From assembly GCF_000374425.1 (NCBI RefSeq), contig NZ_KB894363.1, positions 1 through 64,000 on the forward strand: a DNA stretch of 64,000 bases. The letters run 5' to 3'. The translations under genes were made by a program, and so were the position numbers. This DNA comes from Acinetobacter tjernbergiae DSM 14971 = CIP 107465 (lineage in GTDB: Bacteria; Pseudomonadota; Gammaproteobacteria; Pseudomonadales; Moraxellaceae). Within the stretch, counting starts at the first letter, position 1; each line of letters starts with the position of its first letter. The notes below the pieces were generated by a model, which made no database searches, was not told the DNA's origin, and saw nothing but the letters and a program-made list of their open reading frames with translations. Below are positions 4,603-28,190 of this stretch, piece after piece.

Positions 4603-4815
4603 TGAAGCAGATATACAAAACCAACCATTTAATTTAGCGCGCTTAACTTTCTGCTTAACAACTTCCAAACCACCATAAAATTCAATATTTTCAAAATCAG
4701 CAATGGCTTGTTGAAGCAAATTAAGGTCTTCATAATTTTCGATATAAGCAAGTACAAGCGTATGTTCTTTCGATTGCTCCAAACCCATTTCTTTCACATA
4801 TTTATATGCATTCAT
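4588..4815 (-). CDS. Small hypothetical phage protein, 75 aa
   Basis: Start ATG 4815 overlaps the stop of the upstream CII-like gene by 4 bases (ATGA), indicating translational coupling. The product (MNAYKYVKEMGLEQSKEHTL) is alpha/beta and soluble with no known motif. Its last codons run across the junction with the integrase stub, so the C-terminus may be abnormal. Confidence 0.55.
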   Translation of the reverse strand: MNAYKYVKEMGLEQSKEHTLVLAYIENYEDLNLLQQAIADFENIEFYGGLEVVKQKVKRAKLNGWFCISASCEDG

Positions 4816-7836: not shown

Positions 7837-8856
7837 TTAACTATTAAACGCTTCAACCAAATCAGCGGCATTCGGATTGTAATAAGTATTCACCAACACA
7901 TCTATTTTCTTATGCCCTGTGATTTTCGCTAGAATCTCAACTGGAAGCTTTCTTACTCGAACCATACGTGTGATTGCTTCATGTCGTGTATCGTGAAAAT
8001 GCAGCTCATTAAGCCCCACAGTCACCTTTCTTTTTTCCCACATCAAACGAAATGCATTTTCAGATTGCGGAATGATTCTGCGGCCATCATGCTTGATCAA
8101 TGCAAGCAATGCTTTTGCTTCTTCAGAAAGAGGAACGTTTCTTGACTCGCCATTTTTCGTCTTTGGCAAATGCACATGCCCATCAAAGATATCTTTCTTT
8201 TCCATTGCCAAAATTTCACCACGACGCATAGCTGTCTCGAGCGCAAACAAAAAACCCCAAGCGACATAATGCTGTGATAAAACTGGTTGCCTGCCATGTT
8301 CATAATCAAGAACTTTTAAAATCAGTTCGATTTCAGATGGATGTATACGCCGATCACGCGCTTTTGGTTTTTTCGGCTTAGTGATTAACATCCAAGCATT
8401 TTCATCAAGCAAGAACAATTCTTTTTGAGCATAAGTAAACATTGCACTGTAATGTGAAATCTCTTTAAGAACTGTATTTTCCCCTACTTCAGTTAGACGC
8501 TTATTTCTCCAGTGCGTCAAATCTTTCGGAGTAATGTCATAAATAGACTTTTGTGCCAAAGCACCAAATTTCATTTCAAAGTTTTTATACTGACCAGCGA
8601 TCCAAGCTCGTGATGATTTAGACGAATTGAATTGACCTACATCTTGATAGTATTTTGTATTAAGATCACGAAACAAAAATTTTGGCTTTAACTCACCATT
8701 TTCAATTTTTGTTTGTGCTTTCAATTCTAATAGCTTTAATGCTGCCCACTGCTCACATTCTTTTGCAGTGTCACGAGTACAATAGTATCTCTTTTTTTCG
8801 TATGAAATAGAGATTGCATATGTATCTCCTCTTTTTCGTGCAACTGGCAGCTTCAT
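7837..8856 (-). CDS. Phage tyrosine integrase
   Basis: Start chosen at ATG 8856 (MKLPVARKRGDTY), the usual N-terminus for this family; the frame is open to 8940. It comprises an arm-binding-like N-terminus (about residues 1-60), a SAM-like core-binding domain (about 60-165) and a C-terminal catalytic domain with all expected residues: ETAMRRGE (Arg), KTKNGE (Lys), HDTRH (His-x-x-Arg), GHK (His) and NTYYNP (Tyr). The enzyme catalyses site-specific prophage integration and excision. The adjacent tRNA-Val gene is the likely attachment site. It appears intact although the rest of the prophage is decayed. Confidence 0.88.
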   Translation of the reverse strand: MKLPVARKRGDTYAISISYEKKRYYCTRDTAKECEQWAALKLLELKAQTKIENGELKPKFLFRDLNTKYYQDVGQFNSSKSSRAWIAGQYKNFEMKFGALAQKSIYDITPKDLTHWRNKRLTEVGENTVLKEISHYSAMFTYAQKELFLLDENAWMLITKPKKPKARDRRIHPSEIELILKVLDYEHGRQPVLSQHYVAWGFLFALETAMRRGEILAMEKKDIFDGHVHLPKTKNGESRNVPLSEEAKALLALIKHDGRRIIPQSENAFRLMWEKRKVTVGLNELHFHDTRHEAITRMVRVRKLPVEILAKITGHKKIDVLVNTYYNPNAADLVEAFNS

Positions 8857-22795: not shown

Positions 22796-23197
22796 TCAAT
22801 TATTACGTGCGTTTTGATCTTGCTGAATCAGCTCGATTTTATAACCATCAGGATCTTCAACAAAAGCAATCACCGTGATGCCACCTTTCATTGGCCCTGC
22901 TTCACGGACGACCTTACCGCCACGTGCTTTGATTTGTTCACATGCTTGATAAGCATCTTCTACACCAATCGCAATATGACCATAAGCATTCCCTAAGTCA
23001 TAGCTAGGCGTATCCCAATTATGTGTCAACTCAAGTACAGTGTTATTTCTTTCATCGCCATAACCGACAAAAGCCAGGGTAAAACGCCCTTCTTCATAGT
23101 CACGCTGGCGTAGCAAGGTCATACCAAGTACCTCAGTGTAGAACTTTAAAGATTGTTCTAAATTACCTACTCGTAGCATCGTATGTAACATGCGCAT
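22796..23197 (-). CDS. gloA: Lactoylglutathione lyase (glyoxalase I)
   Basis: 133 residues starting [17 protein letters not shown], with metal ligands His5, Glu ([10 protein letters not shown]), His (GHIAIGV) and Glu (YKIELIQ). It isomerises the methylglyoxal-glutathione adduct; gloB at 59553 completes the pathway. It lies 2 bases downstream of ampG and is probably cotranscribed with it. Confidence 0.95.
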
Positions 23198-23199
23198 CG

Positions 23200-25374
23200 T
23201 TATTCACCTTTCTGCTGTATGATGTGGTTCTCATGGTCACGTAATAGTTTCGCAACCCAAACCACGAGGATTAAAATTGGAATACCAATTAACGTCGTCA
23301 TTAAAAAGAAATTCGGATAACCGATATTGCTGACTATTGTTCCTGAATAACCACCCAATAATTTGGGGGTTAACGTCATTAATGAACTGAAAATCGCATA
23401 TTGAACCGCAGTAAATGACACACTGGTTAAGCTCGATAAAAAGGCAATAAAAGCCGCACCTGCTAAACCTGAAGCCAAATTATCGATAATAATGGCAAAG
23501 TACAGCCACAAAGAACTATAGCTTTTGATCACCTTACCAGAAAGTTCGATCATCCCTGACTGACTCGGATCAATCACAGCAATCGGCTGAATCTCTACAT
23601 TTAAAGCCATCTCAGCATGAGATGCTGTATCAATATGATACTGTCGTGTTGCAAATAATTCATTTCCAGTATTATTTTTTAAGTGAACTAAGGCTGTAAT
23701 GGCTTTAGTCGGAGAAGCTTGTAACAACTTTCCATCCACTGCACCTGTAAATACGCCATTTTCATCTACCTTAGTCACAAATTCTTGACCATCTAATTGA
23801 AGAACAACAGGCTTCTCCTCATTTAAGTCTTCAGCTTTAATCCCTGCCAGCTGCCCTTTAATCACCAAGCTTTGTTTTAACTCTTTTGGTGTTAAATGGT
23901 CATCACTACTGATGGGTAATAATTGAATCTGAGCTTGCTGAGAACTCACTAAATAAGGGACGGTTAATTGAATTTTAGAGTCCGCTTGATTTTGATATTG
24001 AGTGCTTAACTTCACTTCATTTGCTTTTGATAATGTGGCATTGGGTACTTGCAGCTTCCAATAACCAACTTCGTCCGTTGCGACTTGATAATGTTGATCA
24101 CCGATTTGAACGTCCACCTGATCTAGTGGTTTACCTGATTTGACCAAGCCAATAAAAATCAAATTGGTTGAGCTTGCCAACACTGCACCGACAAACATCA
24201 ATTTCATAATGTTCATGCGTTGTGCAAGTAAACCACCTAAAAAACCGCCGACCAAGCTAAACAACACACCATAAATTTTAACTGCTTCGGCAATCTGCTC
24301 TTTACTAAAATTTAAATCTTGATAGAACACATTGGAAATCACCCCTGCAATAATGTCAGAGATACGAAAAAACCCAATCAATAGCAAAAGCACTAAAGCA
24401 AGTTTGACACCATAACGTTTAAAGAAATCTAGAATAGGTGCAATCCAAGTTTCTTTAGCCATCTGCTGATTGACAACACCCATTTTAACCAGAGCAAAAC
24501 CGATCAATAATGCCATTGCTGTAGCTGTTAAAAAGCGTAGTGCCTCTAAACCAAATAAAGCTGCGGTGTCTTTAATTGTTGCTGCTTTAACGATAGCATC
24601 TGTTAGATTGCCTGAATAAATATAGCTCACGACAAAAGTGCCAACCGCAATAAAAAACACAAAGACCAAGCGATAATAGTCTGTAGTTTTATAATGTTTA
24701 TAAACGCGATTTACTTGTGGTTCACGAATACATAAAGTGGTGATGATACCCACCGCCATGACTGCTGCCATAGTCAAATAGGTATATTTCCAAGCTTCAT
24801 AGATATAATTACCTTTGGCAGTTCCCAAATAAGCAGCAAGAAATAAAGCCCCTGCACCCGCAACGATCATCCCAATACGATAACCTGCGTTGTAAGTTGA
24901 AGCTAAAACCGTTTGCATCTCACTTTCAGCAAGCTCGATACGATAAGCATCAATCACAATATCTTGGGTCGCTGCGGAGAATCCCAGTAAGACTGCACCA
25001 ACTGCCATTTGGATTAAATAGCTTTGTCCAAGTGCTGGGTCGGAAAATGCCATAATACAAATTGCACATATAATTAAAATTTGTGCAATCAACAACCAAG
25101 CACGGCGGCGACCTAAACTTTTCGTTAAAAATGGAACGGGCAATTCATCAATTAAAGGCGCCCAAACAAATTTAAAAGAGTAGCCCAATGCAGCCCAACT
25201 AAAAAATGTCACAGCACTTTTATCAATTCCTGCCTCACCTAGCCATAAAGACAAGCTAGAAAAAATCAATAGAATGGGTATCCCTGCGGAGAAACCAAGA
25301 AATAGCATGATCAGTGCGCGGCGATCCCAAAAAGCTTTAAATGCGGATGCCCAGCCAGTGGCTTGAGTTGTCAT
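23200..25374 (-). CDS. ampG: AmpG-family muropeptide MFS transporter with an inserted beta-rich domain
   Basis: 724 residues, against about 490 for E. coli AmpG. The N-terminal MFS half and AmpG blocks are clear ([57 protein letters not shown]). Between about residues 420 and 615 a hydrophilic beta-rich stretch interrupts the second MFS half ([39 protein letters not shown]), after which helices resume ([17 protein letters not shown]). AmpG imports anhydro-muropeptides for cell-wall recycling. The insert resembles Ig-like or carbohydrate-binding folds and probably faces the periplasm. Same insert may be normal for the genus. Confidence 0.85.
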
Positions 25375-25559: not shown

Positions 25560-28190
25560 GTGACCCAAAAACTTGATCAAATGACTGCAACAACTTTATC
25601 TTTAACACCAACAAACACGATTACAGCGAAGATCAATTTATTACCAAGTGCCTTTGAGCAAACGGATATTCAAGCAACACTCACGAAAACAGCACTTCGT
25701 CCAGAGCAACTCACCCACATTCTCAATTTAGCTGAGATTCCAAGTTCAACGAAACGCATCAAACCCCTTAATAACTTTCTTGGGCAAGATCGCGCACGTG
25801 CTTCAGTTGAAGCAGGTATTTCCTTACCATATTCAGGCTATAATATTTTTGCAGTCGGCACAGCAGGTCTAGGCAAACGAACCATGATTAAGCGTTTGCT
25901 TCAGCAGCACGCCAAAACCATGCCAACGCCAAATGACTGGGTCTATGTCAATAACTTCAAAAACCCAAGACAACCAATTGCGCTGCGTTTCCCCGCAGGA
26001 CAAGGCACAAAATTTCAAAATGCATTACAACAAGCATGGCAGATCATTCTAAAGCAGTTAGAACGCCGTTTTAGCGCAGAAAGTTATCACAATCGTATTG
26101 AGCGTATTCGTCAAGACACGGGTGATGTACAACAACAAGCGTTGATAGAACTCACAAAAGAGGGGCAAGAGCTCGATTTAAAATTGATTTCTCGTGATGA
26201 CAAACACGTCTTTATTCCAATGCAACTCAGAGAGAATGAATATCAAGAATTAACAAAAAATGATCTTGATGCTCTGAGCAGCAAAGACCGCGCTGAAATC
26301 ACATCCAACATGCGTTATATGGAGAAAAAGCTAGAACGTTTAGGCTTACACCTTGGCGATTTAGAAGATGATGCGCGCGATCAAGTATCGATTTTAAACC
26401 GTGACATTGCGACCCAAGTGGTTACGCCACGCATGGAATCAATTTTAAATAAAAATAAAGAAGTCAAAGGTCTCGATGTATATCTAAAACATTATGCTGA
26501 GGACATTATTGATAATGTCGAGCTAATTTTAGAGCAAGAAGAAGATGACTTTACACCTGCTTTATTCAACCGTGTTCCTTCACGCTATCAAGCCAATGTG
26601 ATCGTTGCCAATAAACCCAATAGCGGTGCACCTGTTATTTTCGAAGATTTTCCAACACACTACAATTTATTGGGTCATGTTGAGCAACTTACACACAATG
26701 GTACGATTACCACTGATTTCACCTTAATTCGCCCAGGTTCATTACATCAAGCCAACGGCGGCTTTTTAATCCTTGAAGCAGAACAATTGCTTGAACAACC
26801 TTATGCATGGCAAGGTTTAAAACGTGCATTAAAATCAGGACAGCTCAAACTTTCATCTTTGGAACACATGCTCACCTTAACAGGCAGTATTTCGATTGAA
26901 CCTGCTTCTGTTCCCCTTGATCTTAAAGTTGTTCTATTGGCAGAACCTGAAATTTATTATGAAATTTTAGAAGTCGAACCTGAGCTAGGTAGTGTCTTTA
27001 AAATTCGCGCTGACTTTACCGATACCTTGCAACGCAATAACAGCAATGAACAAGCCTATATGCAACTGATTGCAGACTATGTTCAAGCAGATAAATTACT
27101 TCCATTTGATCGTTCAGCACTTGCAGCTTTGCTCACTGATTCTAGCCGTCAGGCAGAAGATCAAAGTTCACTCTCTCTACATGCCTCTACACTCGGCGAT
27201 TTAATTCGTGAAGCACATCATCATGCCTTTAAAGCCGATGACAAAATCGTCACTGATCAGCACGTTAATCAAGCCTTGCACCATCGCCAATATCGCTTAG
27301 GCTATTTAAGAGAGCTTTACTGGCAAGATCTCTCGCGTGGTACGCAGCTCATTGAAACCACAGGACATCGCCTGGGTCAAATCAATGCCTTGTCTGTAAT
27401 TCACTATGCAGATGTTGAGTTCGGTTTACCCTCTCGTCTCACCGCATCCGTCTATCAAGGTGGCGGCGATATCCTCGATATTGAACGCAGCGTTGAATTG
27501 GGTGGTTCACTACATGCCAAAGGCGTGTTACTGATGTCGAGTTTCTTAAAAGCTCATTTTGGTCGTGCGCAGATTCTACACTTCTCTGCAGCTTTGGCTT
27601 TTGAACAAAGCTACGGGCAAGTGGATGGCGATAGTGCCACTGTTGCAGAACTGTCAGCTTTAATCTCTGCCATCTGTCAAATTCCAATTGATCAGTCATG
27701 GGCAATTACAGGCTCAATGAATCAACTCGGTCAAGTTCAACCGATTGGTGGGGTCAATTCCAAAATTGAAGGTTTCTATGATGCCTGTAAACTTCAAGGT
27801 CTAACAGGTAAACAAGGCGTGATTATTCCACGTCAAAACATGCAACATTTGATGCTACGCCAAGATGTGATTGACGCAGTACAAGCAGGTCAATTCCATG
27901 TACATGCCATTGATACAATTGATCAAGCTTTAGAAATTTTAATGGCTCGCCCTGTTGGAACACTCGACAAGAAAGGTCGATATAGTAAAAACTCAATTTA
28001 TGCGGCTGTCATGCAACAATTAGAGTATTGGCAAGCGATTGAAGATGGTGAAGCTGTTGAGGACGATGAGCCAAAGAAAAAGAGAAAGCGCAAGAAAACC
28101 AAGAAAGATGATGCTGATGCAAAAACTTTAGAAGATTCTACCGTTGAAGCGAAAAGCTTAAAAATGCTCAGTAAAAAAAATAGGTCATAA
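25560..28190 (+). CDS. Lon-like ATP-dependent protease (AAA plus Lon C-terminal domain)
   Basis: 876 residues from GTG 25560. Walker A is GTAGLGKRTM (about residue 100), and a long inserted helical region follows (about 180-320). The Walker B region is GGFLILEAEQL. The C-terminal Lon protease domain has catalytic Ser in VDGDSATVAEL (about 691) and Lys in GGVNSKIEGF (about 734). The tail is lysine-rich (KKKRKRKKTKK). This is the LonB-type family of gammaproteobacteria, not classic Lon. It has its own divergent promoter region with ampG. Confidence 0.88.
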   Translation: MTQKLDQMTATTLSLTPTNTITAKINLLPSAFEQTDIQATLTKTALRPEQLTHILNLAEIPSSTKRIKPLNNFLGQDRARASVEAGISLPYSGYNIFAVGTAGLGKRTMIKRLLQQHAKTMPTPNDWVYVNNFKNPRQPIALRFPAGQGTKFQNALQQAWQIILKQLERRFSAESYHNRIERIRQDTGDVQQQALIELTKEGQELDLKLISRDDKHVFIPMQLRENEYQELTKNDLDALSSKDRAEITSNMRYMEKKLERLGLHLGDLEDDARDQVSILNRDIATQVVTPRMESILNKNKEVKGLDVYLKHYAEDIIDNVELILEQEEDDFTPALFNRVPSRYQANVIVANKPNSGAPVIFEDFPTHYNLLGHVEQLTHNGTITTDFTLIRPGSLHQANGGFLILEAEQLLEQPYAWQGLKRALKSGQLKLSSLEHMLTLTGSISIEPASVPLDLKVVLLAEPEIYYEILEVEPELGSVFKIRADFTDTLQRNNSNEQAYMQLIADYVQADKLLPFDRSALAALLTDSSRQAEDQSSLSLHASTLGDLIREAHHHAFKADDKIVTDQHVNQALHHRQYRLGYLRELYWQDLSRGTQLIETTGHRLGQINALSVIHYADVEFGLPSRLTASVYQGGGDILDIERSVELGGSLHAKGVLLMSSFLKAHFGRAQILHFSAALAFEQSYGQVDGDSATVAELSALISAICQIPIDQSWAITGSMNQLGQVQPIGGVNSKIEGFYDACKLQGLTGKQGVIIPRQNMQHLMLRQDVIDAVQAGQFHVHAIDTIDQALEILMARPVGTLDKKGRYSKNSIYAAVMQQLEYWQAIEDGEAVEDDEPKKKRKRKKTKKDDADAKTLEDSTVEAKSLKMLSKKNRS

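Follow-up and report, generated by a model that had tools for sequence, protein, structure and literature searches.

A variable double Ig-like insert in the muropeptide transporter AmpG of Acinetobacter, and an ampG locus that appears to exchange its alleles

The window, that is, the whole stretch of 64,000 nucleotides from Acinetobacter tjernbergiae that was analyzed, carries on its reverse strand a gene (23200-25374) that a sequence-only reading had assigned as ampG. This assignment holds. The open reading frame (ORF) has an ATG start, codes for 724 aa and scores 497 bits, in two stretches, against the AmpG family model TIGR00901 (cut-off 350 bits). In a tree, the protein groups with Escherichia coli AmpG (a long branch with an unsure exact placement) and apart from the short Acinetobacter paralogues. 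A Pfam search with the whole protein (E up to 1) returned MFS_1, Acatn and a weak match to CarbopepD_reg_2; a PTR2 match was absent, which speaks against membership in the POT/PTR2 family. The gene is annotated as an AmpG-family MFS muropeptide transporter, muropeptide import by the window protein being a family assignment. Its downstream neighbor is gloA (22796-23197, reverse strand), which is also the downstream boundary of a whole-gene exchange in A. baumannii (see below). The divergent neighbor codes for a lon-like protease (25560-28190, forward strand) and serves here as a marker of host lineage.

Residues ~14-222, 307-404 and 624-711 align to solved AmpG chains (8zgz, 9j9z); residues 405-623 are unmatched and fall between TM9 and TM10. 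All ampG features below are on the reverse strand. The TM1-TM9 core together with two extra helices (residues 18-412; 24139-25323) was delineated from AlphaFold helices (of low confidence there), hydropathy and alignment to PDB AmpG chains, as was TM10-TM12 (residues 621-712; 23239-23514). The insert in the TM9-TM10 loop (residues 413-620; 23515-24138), defined by alignment, models and profile, holds two Ig-like domains and is predicted to be periplasmic. The sequence-only reading had described a beta-rich insert of 195 residues; its nature is confirmed and its position is the TM9-TM10 loop, but the net size is nearer to 205 residues. This insert had been taken to explain the extra length, which is correct but incomplete, since a pair of additional helices that separates TM6 from TM7 (residues 222-306; 24457-24711) adds to it: the window AmpG has 85 aa there, versus 8 residues in E. 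coli AmpG. The helix pair, delineated by alignment, conservation, pN/pS and hydropathy, is moderately variable and is the second most variable part of the window AmpG. Bacterial POT transporters are described with two additional helices (HA-HB), the function of which is given as unknown (PMC8565842).

The insert was traced by aligning 89 Acinetobacter AmpGs with 43 others, of which 12 come from the remaining Moraxellaceae, 30 from further Pseudomonadales and one from E. coli. The loop between query residues 405 and 626 has 209-242 aa in 88 of the 89 Acinetobacter AmpGs and 159 aa in the remaining one (L162), whereas outside Acinetobacter it has 17-19 aa in 38 of 43 (E. coli included) and 22-40 aa in the other five. 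Thus, the insert is found in 89/89 Acinetobacter AmpGs (shortened in L162) versus 0/43 from outside the genus, and the length comparison that had been proposed does not find it absent in close homologs. In the nearest insert-less genus (L145, L146), the alignment breaks at query residues 417/623. One Moraxellaceae AmpG without the Ig insert (L154) has a TM9-TM10 loop of 40 residues rather than 17-19. An AmpG gene above the TIGR00901 cut-off is present in all 89 Acinetobacter genomes, with open frames of 653-768 codons among the matches listed, and a divergent Acinetobacter AmpG used as query matches 175/175 genomes of the genus at E up to 1e-150.

A profile of the insert was used beyond this alignment. 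Among 61 Moraxellaceae genomes, it matches within the AmpG of all seven Acinetobacter, and nine of the other 54 have matches as well. AmpG lies at a different site from the insert-profile match in seven of them, and no AmpG core was found in the ORFs fetched from the remaining two (G158, G201) and from two of those seven. Among 368 other gammaproteobacterial genomes, only four have matches (ORFs of 6328, 3388, 658 and 1808 codons), and the 658- and 1808-codon ORFs, when fetched, lack an AmpG core. The weakly matching ORFs of G603, G492, G176, G167, G201 and G158, which either had a length compatible with AmpG or were of no evident kind, were each considered as insert-bearing AmpGs and discarded on this ground. 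An AmpG with the Ig insert was thus found in 0/54 other Moraxellaceae and 0/368 other gammaproteobacterial genomes. A TIGR00901 length survey of the class is not counted as a negative result, as it lists the best-scoring matches and insert-bearing genes score lower. In a quick tree, ten long AmpGs form a single clade (SH-aLRT 99) that is nested within the insert-less Moraxellaceae AmpGs and groups with two rows of the nearest genus (SH-aLRT 98). The simplest account is a single gain of the insert on the Acinetobacter stem. Most simply, the gain would be older than the split into the two ampG classes described below, because class I and class II both carry the insert.

As to the source of the insert, adhesin-like ORFs that match its profile occur in further Moraxellaceae as well as in one congener, which does not single out a donor. 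An adhesin paralog of the own genome was discarded as donor, the insert having matched only itself in that genome (single-sequence query, E up to 10). A phage or plasmid origin was likewise considered and rejected. A scan of viral contigs gave 63 pattern matches, none of which was confirmed as a relative; five Acinetobacter matches in phage and plasmid collections (H1-H5), when opened, had chromosomal surroundings. Four further weak matches (H6-H9) come from Conchiformibius, two E. coli and Rahnella, and two of them bear the annotation of an Ig-like domain protein.

The insert is beta-rich and, with a mean hydropathy of -0.31, hydrophilic on average, just as had been described. When modeled alone with AlphaFold (58 rows), it is ordered (mean pLDDT 92.8, pTM 0.87), so that disorder is not the case. 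The full-length model is poor (mean pLDDT 65.6, pTM 0.48; ten-residue blocks of the insert at 60-91, membrane part down to 34), too poor to place the insert on the transporter. The top four Foldseek matches to the insert model are Ig domains of ice-binding adhesins. By VIA, model residues 68-173 (domain 2) align to 5irb_B with a Z of 12.4 (rmsd 2.4, 99 residues aligned) and to 4kdv with a Z of 12.1 (rmsd 2.5, 98 aligned), so that domain 2 has the same fold as these; the VIA alignments span mainly this domain. PepT structures are absent from the best 50 matches of Foldseek and the best 50 of VIA, which says nothing against the likeness to PepT treated below. At the sequence level, the insert profile matches 4p99 (E 6.6e-32), with residues 8-150 of the insert collinear with 273-416. 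Because its NCBIfam scores (Ca_tandemer 41.0 bits, Ig_like_ice 47.1 bits) are below the cut-offs of 50 bits, we consider the insert a relative of the MpAFP-RII / Ca_tandemer repeats but do not file it as a member. Pfam, applied to the insert alone, returned only weak CarbopepD_reg_2 and UPF0257 matches and no peptidoglycan-binding family.

The insert appears to be cut out of phase with the adhesin repeats. We read it as spanning three repeats, with only the second half of the first, all of the next and just the initial strands of the last, because it is collinear both with 4p99 and with the repeats of adhesin ORFs. In an adhesin-like ORF of 6328 codons from another genus of the order (G120:C1:2196754-2206617), the profile matches in eight listed places, which extend from insert position 7 to 169-206 and are mostly ~624 nt (~208 codons), or a multiple thereof, apart. 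In an adhesin-like ORF of another Moraxellaceae genus, the matching insert stretches are, e.g., 21-170 and 27-203. The first part of Ig-like domain 1 (residues 418-477; 23944-24123) corresponds to the second half of a repeat, Ig-like domain 2 (residues 479-580; 23635-23940) is complete, and residues 588-616 (23527-23613), which correspond to the first strands of a repeat, are predicted to complete domain 1. That these two distant parts close into one domain is suggested by the model and by modest profile gains: permuting the halves of domain 1 raises the score from 19.0 to 22.2 bits for Ca_tandemer and from 18.0 to 23.4 bits for CarbopepD_reg_2. With hhalign against domain 2, permuted domain 1 scores 32.3, the natural order 32.7 and the first part alone 33.1; the permuted alignment is longer and takes in strand B, without a gain in score. 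If the ends of the insert close into one domain, TM9 and TM10 would emerge from the interior of an Ig fold. The insert retains part of an acidic motif (the commonest residue at position 491 occurs in 84%, position 492 is N or D in 85/88, and E498 is present in 81/88). In Ca_tandemer-type repeats, such acidic motifs bind calcium at domain junctions.

The periplasmic location that had been proposed for the insert is supported by the distribution of positive charges, since predicted inner loops are richer in K+R (22 in 149 residues) than outer loops (6 in 85, insert excluded); these counts refer to a model with 14 helices and the N-terminus inside and include four residues of each helix end. Sequence constraint differs strongly between the parts of the protein. 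Among the 89 Acinetobacter AmpGs, the mean pairwise identity is 84% for the core and 38% for the insert. In 88 sequences, mean conservation is 0.92-0.94 in the core, 0.68 in the TM6-TM7 region, 0.51-0.55 in the Ig domains and 0.36 in the link (581-591). The joints are conserved, with a mean of 0.90 for the N-terminal joint (residues 406-417; 24124-24159) and 0.81 for the C-terminal joint (GKVIK.YSS, residues 612-622; 23509-23541), in which G613, K614, Y619 and S620 are invariant in 88 rows. Among 52 close pairs (50 of them usable; pairs overlap and include swapped ones), the core has a median dN/dS of 0.028 and the insert one of 0.141. In 17 hand-picked pairs, pooled pN/pS values are 0.019-0.026 in the core, rise to 0.10 in the TM6-TM7 region and reach 0.14-0.34 in parts of the insert. 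Positive selection by point change was not seen, as no 20-codon window in these pairs has a pN/pS above 0.33. The insert is under purifying but loose selection, with its fold kept while its sequence drifts.

Closely related hosts may carry very different inserts. Two close relatives (L048 and L058) have 95.6% identical core DNA, but their insert proteins are only 39% identical. L058 shares 83% insert identity with L049, the core DNA of which is only 76.8% identical. Likewise, L013 and L018 have 90.3% identical core DNA versus 35% identical inserts, and L013 and L015 share 73% identity in the insert. In 200-bp windows, identity is 0.49-0.54 in the insert versus 0.79-1.0 elsewhere for L013/L018, and 0.58-0.59 versus 0.88-0.99 for L048/L058 (a window of 0.67 at 8001 is an alignment artefact past the 7.1 kb of L058). 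As a control, 160 kb around ampG were compared between the L013 and L018 genomes, a single pair that was picked because the swap had already been seen there. This gave 74 reciprocal protein pairs, 62 of them with at least 150 and 45 with at least 250 aligned residues. Among the 45 pairs, AmpG has the deepest internal dip (lowest 100-residue window 33%, rest 90%), the next having 67% and 92%; among all 62, one protein of 216 aa dips lower (21%, rest 74%). In AU tests, the insert tree and both TM trees are mutually rejected, as are the trees of the two TM halves; with fast trees and 5000 replicates, which is below the recommendation of the program, we do not use this as main proof, and such incongruence shows general recombination. 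The pattern looks like an exchange of inserts between close relatives by homologous recombination.

Whole genes appear to be exchanged, too. The ampG locus is present on five Acinetobacter records (L222-L226) that are labeled as plasmid or phage. In two of them, lon-like, ampG and gloA are annotated in that order, and in the other three the lon-like gene was located by tblastn. Over 12.6 kb, the five records represent three haplotypes (L222 = L223; L225 = L226; L224). Three (L222, L223 and L224; NZ_CP077849.1, NZ_CP064203.1 and NZ_CP104448.1) are A. baumannii "plasmids" of 3.7-4.1 Mb with chromosomal genes, apparently chromosomes that were mislabeled. The others (L225 and L226; CAKLQF020000018.1 and CAKLQH020000016.1) are 90-kb contigs of "Acinetobacter phage MD-2021a" with lon-like, ampG, gloA, yfeH and rpmE in chromosomal order; they were considered as phage-borne copies, but the stretch read is host chromosome. 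A. baumannii has two classes of ampG between near-identical flanks: between L222 and L224, 250-bp windows are 94-100% identical in the flanks versus 52-69% in ampG. In 25-bp windows, divergence starts at 4751-4775, directly past the first ATG of ampG at 4750, and has ended by 6950, 11 bp past the stop codon. Between class I and class II proteins, identity is 64-71% in the core segments, 28% in the TM6-TM7 region and 16-27% in parts of the insert. The window ampG belongs to class I.

Class II occurs in at least 16 of the 175 genomes of the genus, having been assigned in eight plus eight genomes, with the rest judged in part by listed identity. When mapped onto a lon-like gene tree of 108 rows (18 of them class II; L265, L223 and L226 left out), the class label changes 14 times, and 11 of these changes are forced by starred branches; label shuffles average ~16.8 changes, and a count as low as 14 was reached in 11 or 12 of 500. 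Before eight of the class II genomes were added, the tree had 10 changes, 7 of them forced. From this comparison, class II is scattered across the genus with slight clustering by host lineage; the tree is a quick one with some long branches, and the marker gene may itself recombine. The AmpG proteins of L263 (genome G265) and L225 are 100% identical, yet the lon-like gene of G265 lies outside the A. baumannii rows (SH-aLRT 92), which suggests a recent transfer of ampG. A candidate mosaic of both classes (L275 from G720) was discarded, as class II rows are nearest in all eight segments. In sum, alleles of ampG, with the insert alone or the whole gene as unit, appear to be exchanged between strains and species. 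In the open-licence literature, judged by title and start of abstract, allele exchange of ampG in A. baumannii was not found described.

It has to be considered which A. baumannii gene is the recycling AmpG. The window genome codes for two short members of the TIGR00901 family, with 415 and 439 aa (L082, L083) and scores of 195 and 177 bits; these are below the cut-off of 350, lack the insert and belong to a separate clade of 14 rows. An A. baumannii "AmpG" of 415 aa has been used to complement a P. aeruginosa ampG mutant (PMC5154545). Because the published forward primer matches the short paralog of A. nosocomialis (L187) without mismatch and the reverse primer matches it with 4 mismatches, at the distance of a 415-codon gene, that protein appears to be the short paralog and not the recycling AmpG. 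In strain AB5075, ampG is given with "(2,190)", and a mutation is noted as possibly polar on gloA (PMC8764523). We read the number as a length in bp; the class I ORF of L222 has 2,190 bp when counted from the first ATG. Given this length and the gloA neighbor, the long gene would be the one with the phenotype in that paper, where ampG mutants are meropenem-sensitive. Such mutants are also sensitive to fosfomycin, and import of anhydro-muropeptides has been published for A. baumannii ampG (both PMC8649774). When two homologs were deleted, only one showed a recycling phenotype (PMC8630537). Because ampG mutants are sensitive to meropenem and fosfomycin, studies of the envelope and of antibiotics should take account of the domain and of both allele classes: strains of one species may carry AmpGs with cores that are only about two thirds identical. 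The link to beta-lactamase induction that had been drawn for this gene is weak here, since BfmRS-driven production of beta-lactamase in A. baumannii is reported to be independent of AmpG (PMC5967708); for this reason and because of the variability of the insert, we do not favor a sensor for beta-lactamase induction.

Taken together, Acinetobacter AmpG is a variant of a known transporter, with a pattern of allele exchange alongside; what had been observed in the sequence is confirmed, and its interpretation is partly supported. The explanation that we prefer as a whole, with a probability of about 0.5, is a recycling AmpG with a PepT-like accessory platform, encoded at a locus that exchanges alleles. 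Alignment, tree and profile indicate that, on the Acinetobacter stem, a recycling AmpG gained two Ig repeats of the ice-binding-adhesin type in its predicted periplasmic TM9-TM10 loop. The insert is cut out of phase, so that TM9 and TM10 most likely emerge from the membrane-proximal domain 1 between its strands B and C, a geometry that we infer, with the conserved, nearly invariant joint connecting both helices to this domain. Most likely, the insert has an accessory role in the periplasm, as a platform or spacer that lies at the mouth of the C-terminal lobe and outside the substrate site. This reading is based on PepT1 and PepT2, because place, double Ig design and the combination of a fast domain with a slow core are the same. 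The PepT transporters carry two trypsin-binding Ig-like lobes between TM9 and TM10, the removal of which does not appreciably impair transport (PMC4597091); the crystallized domains of PepT1 and PepT2 are 22% identical (PMC4597091), and their cores are ~65% identical (PMC8565842). Alleles of ampG would be exchanged, with the insert alone or as a whole gene, by homologous recombination.

A tentative alternative, possible at clearly less than even odds, is diversity driven by antagonists: contact-dependent toxins, bacteriocins or DNA injection by phages would target AmpG, and a variable Ig pair together with gene swaps would alter recognition. It draws on the two ampG classes between near-identical flanks in A. 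baumannii, on the at least 11 forced class changes on starred branches of the neighbor-gene tree, on the insert being the deepest internal dip among the 45 ortholog pairs with at least 250 aligned residues, and on the variability of the TM6-TM7 region (28% between classes). It is weakened by the pN/pS windows, none of which exceeds 0.33, so that positive selection by point change is not seen; moreover, the best literature matches were not found to describe AmpG in this role, and no phage-borne insert was confirmed by the scan of viral contigs, with the two "phage" matches being mislabeled host chromosome. The antagonist reading can be combined with that of a platform. It is tempting to go further and to regard ampG as a cassette locus of Acinetobacter, in which a trans-species polymorphism (two whole-gene classes and swapped inserts) is kept because agents that enter through AmpG or dock on it select changed periplasmic surfaces; this, however, we hold to be doubtful.

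It is rather unlikely that the insert holds one specific partner, a periplasmic peptidoglycan hydrolase such as a lytic transglycosylase, in the way proposed for the PepT domain and trypsin. Its position and two-Ig design are those of PepT1/PepT2, the domains of which bind trypsin (PMC4597091), and A. baumannii has a predicted lytic transglycosylase, LtgF, that is genetically linked to recycling together with AmpG (PMC8649774). A specific partner should, however, resist the interchange of alleles, and insert alleles interchange that are 35-39% identical in closely related hosts and 16-27% identical within A. baumannii. Few positions inside the Ig domains are conserved, although a small conserved surface patch is possible. 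Such interchange of 16-39% identical inserts in close hosts argues against a strict host partner as well as against a muropeptide sensor, and would leave room for selection by outside agents. That the insert is a neutral leftover, a tolerated insertion without a role, fits its loose constraint and its absence from 43/43 AmpGs outside the genus but is improbable, considering that it is kept in 89/89 Acinetobacter AmpGs, with purifying selection (dN/dS ~0.14) and invariant joint residues. The role in peptidoglycan-fragment binding or sensing that had been suggested, and that would suit a domain predicted to lie where muropeptides enter their importer from the periplasm, is very improbable, because the site for a constant ligand should be conserved, whereas the insert is hypervariable (38% versus 84% identity), is exchanged between lineages, has an adhesin-type Ig-like fold and matches no peptidoglycan-binding family in Pfam.

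The preferred reading, with its accessory platform, is best placed by comparison with known systems. The AmpGs of E. coli (b0433) and P. aeruginosa (PA4393) share the core and a TIGR00901 score above the cut-off with Acinetobacter AmpG, which differs from AmpGs of other genera by its double Ig-like insert of ~205 aa at TM9-TM10 (0/43 elsewhere). The short AmpG-like paralogs of Acinetobacter share the TIGR00901 match but differ by a score below the cut-off, by the lack of an insert and by forming their own clade. The Ig-like repeats of MpAFP region II (4p99, 4kdv, 5irb) resemble the insert in profile (E 6.6e-32) and in the fold of domain 2 (Z 12); in MpAFP, however, they form a long adhesin array, whereas in Acinetobacter two units are set out of phase into a membrane transporter. 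In the open-licence literature, judged by title, an Ig-like insert in Acinetobacter AmpG was not found described, and PepT papers rank top for Ig-like domains between TM9 and TM10 of MFS transporters. A paper from 2021 calls PepT1 and PepT2 the only known MFS transporters with a domain at this position (PMC8565842). Like these mammalian proteins (SLC15), Acinetobacter AmpG is an MFS transporter that takes up peptide-containing substrates and bears a pair of Ig-like lobes in the TM9-TM10 loop (domain 1 by prediction), and in both a fast-diverging Ig domain accompanies a slow core. It differs in belonging to another transporter family, in having Ig units of the adhesin type in half-full-half order, and in exposing them to the periplasm (predicted), whereas the PepT domain is in the gut lumen. 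The likeness is one of architecture rather than of demonstrated homology, and with the AmpG of Acinetobacter, a genus that counts the naturally competent laboratory species A. baylyi among its members, a bacterial transporter has apparently reached the PepT layout independently.
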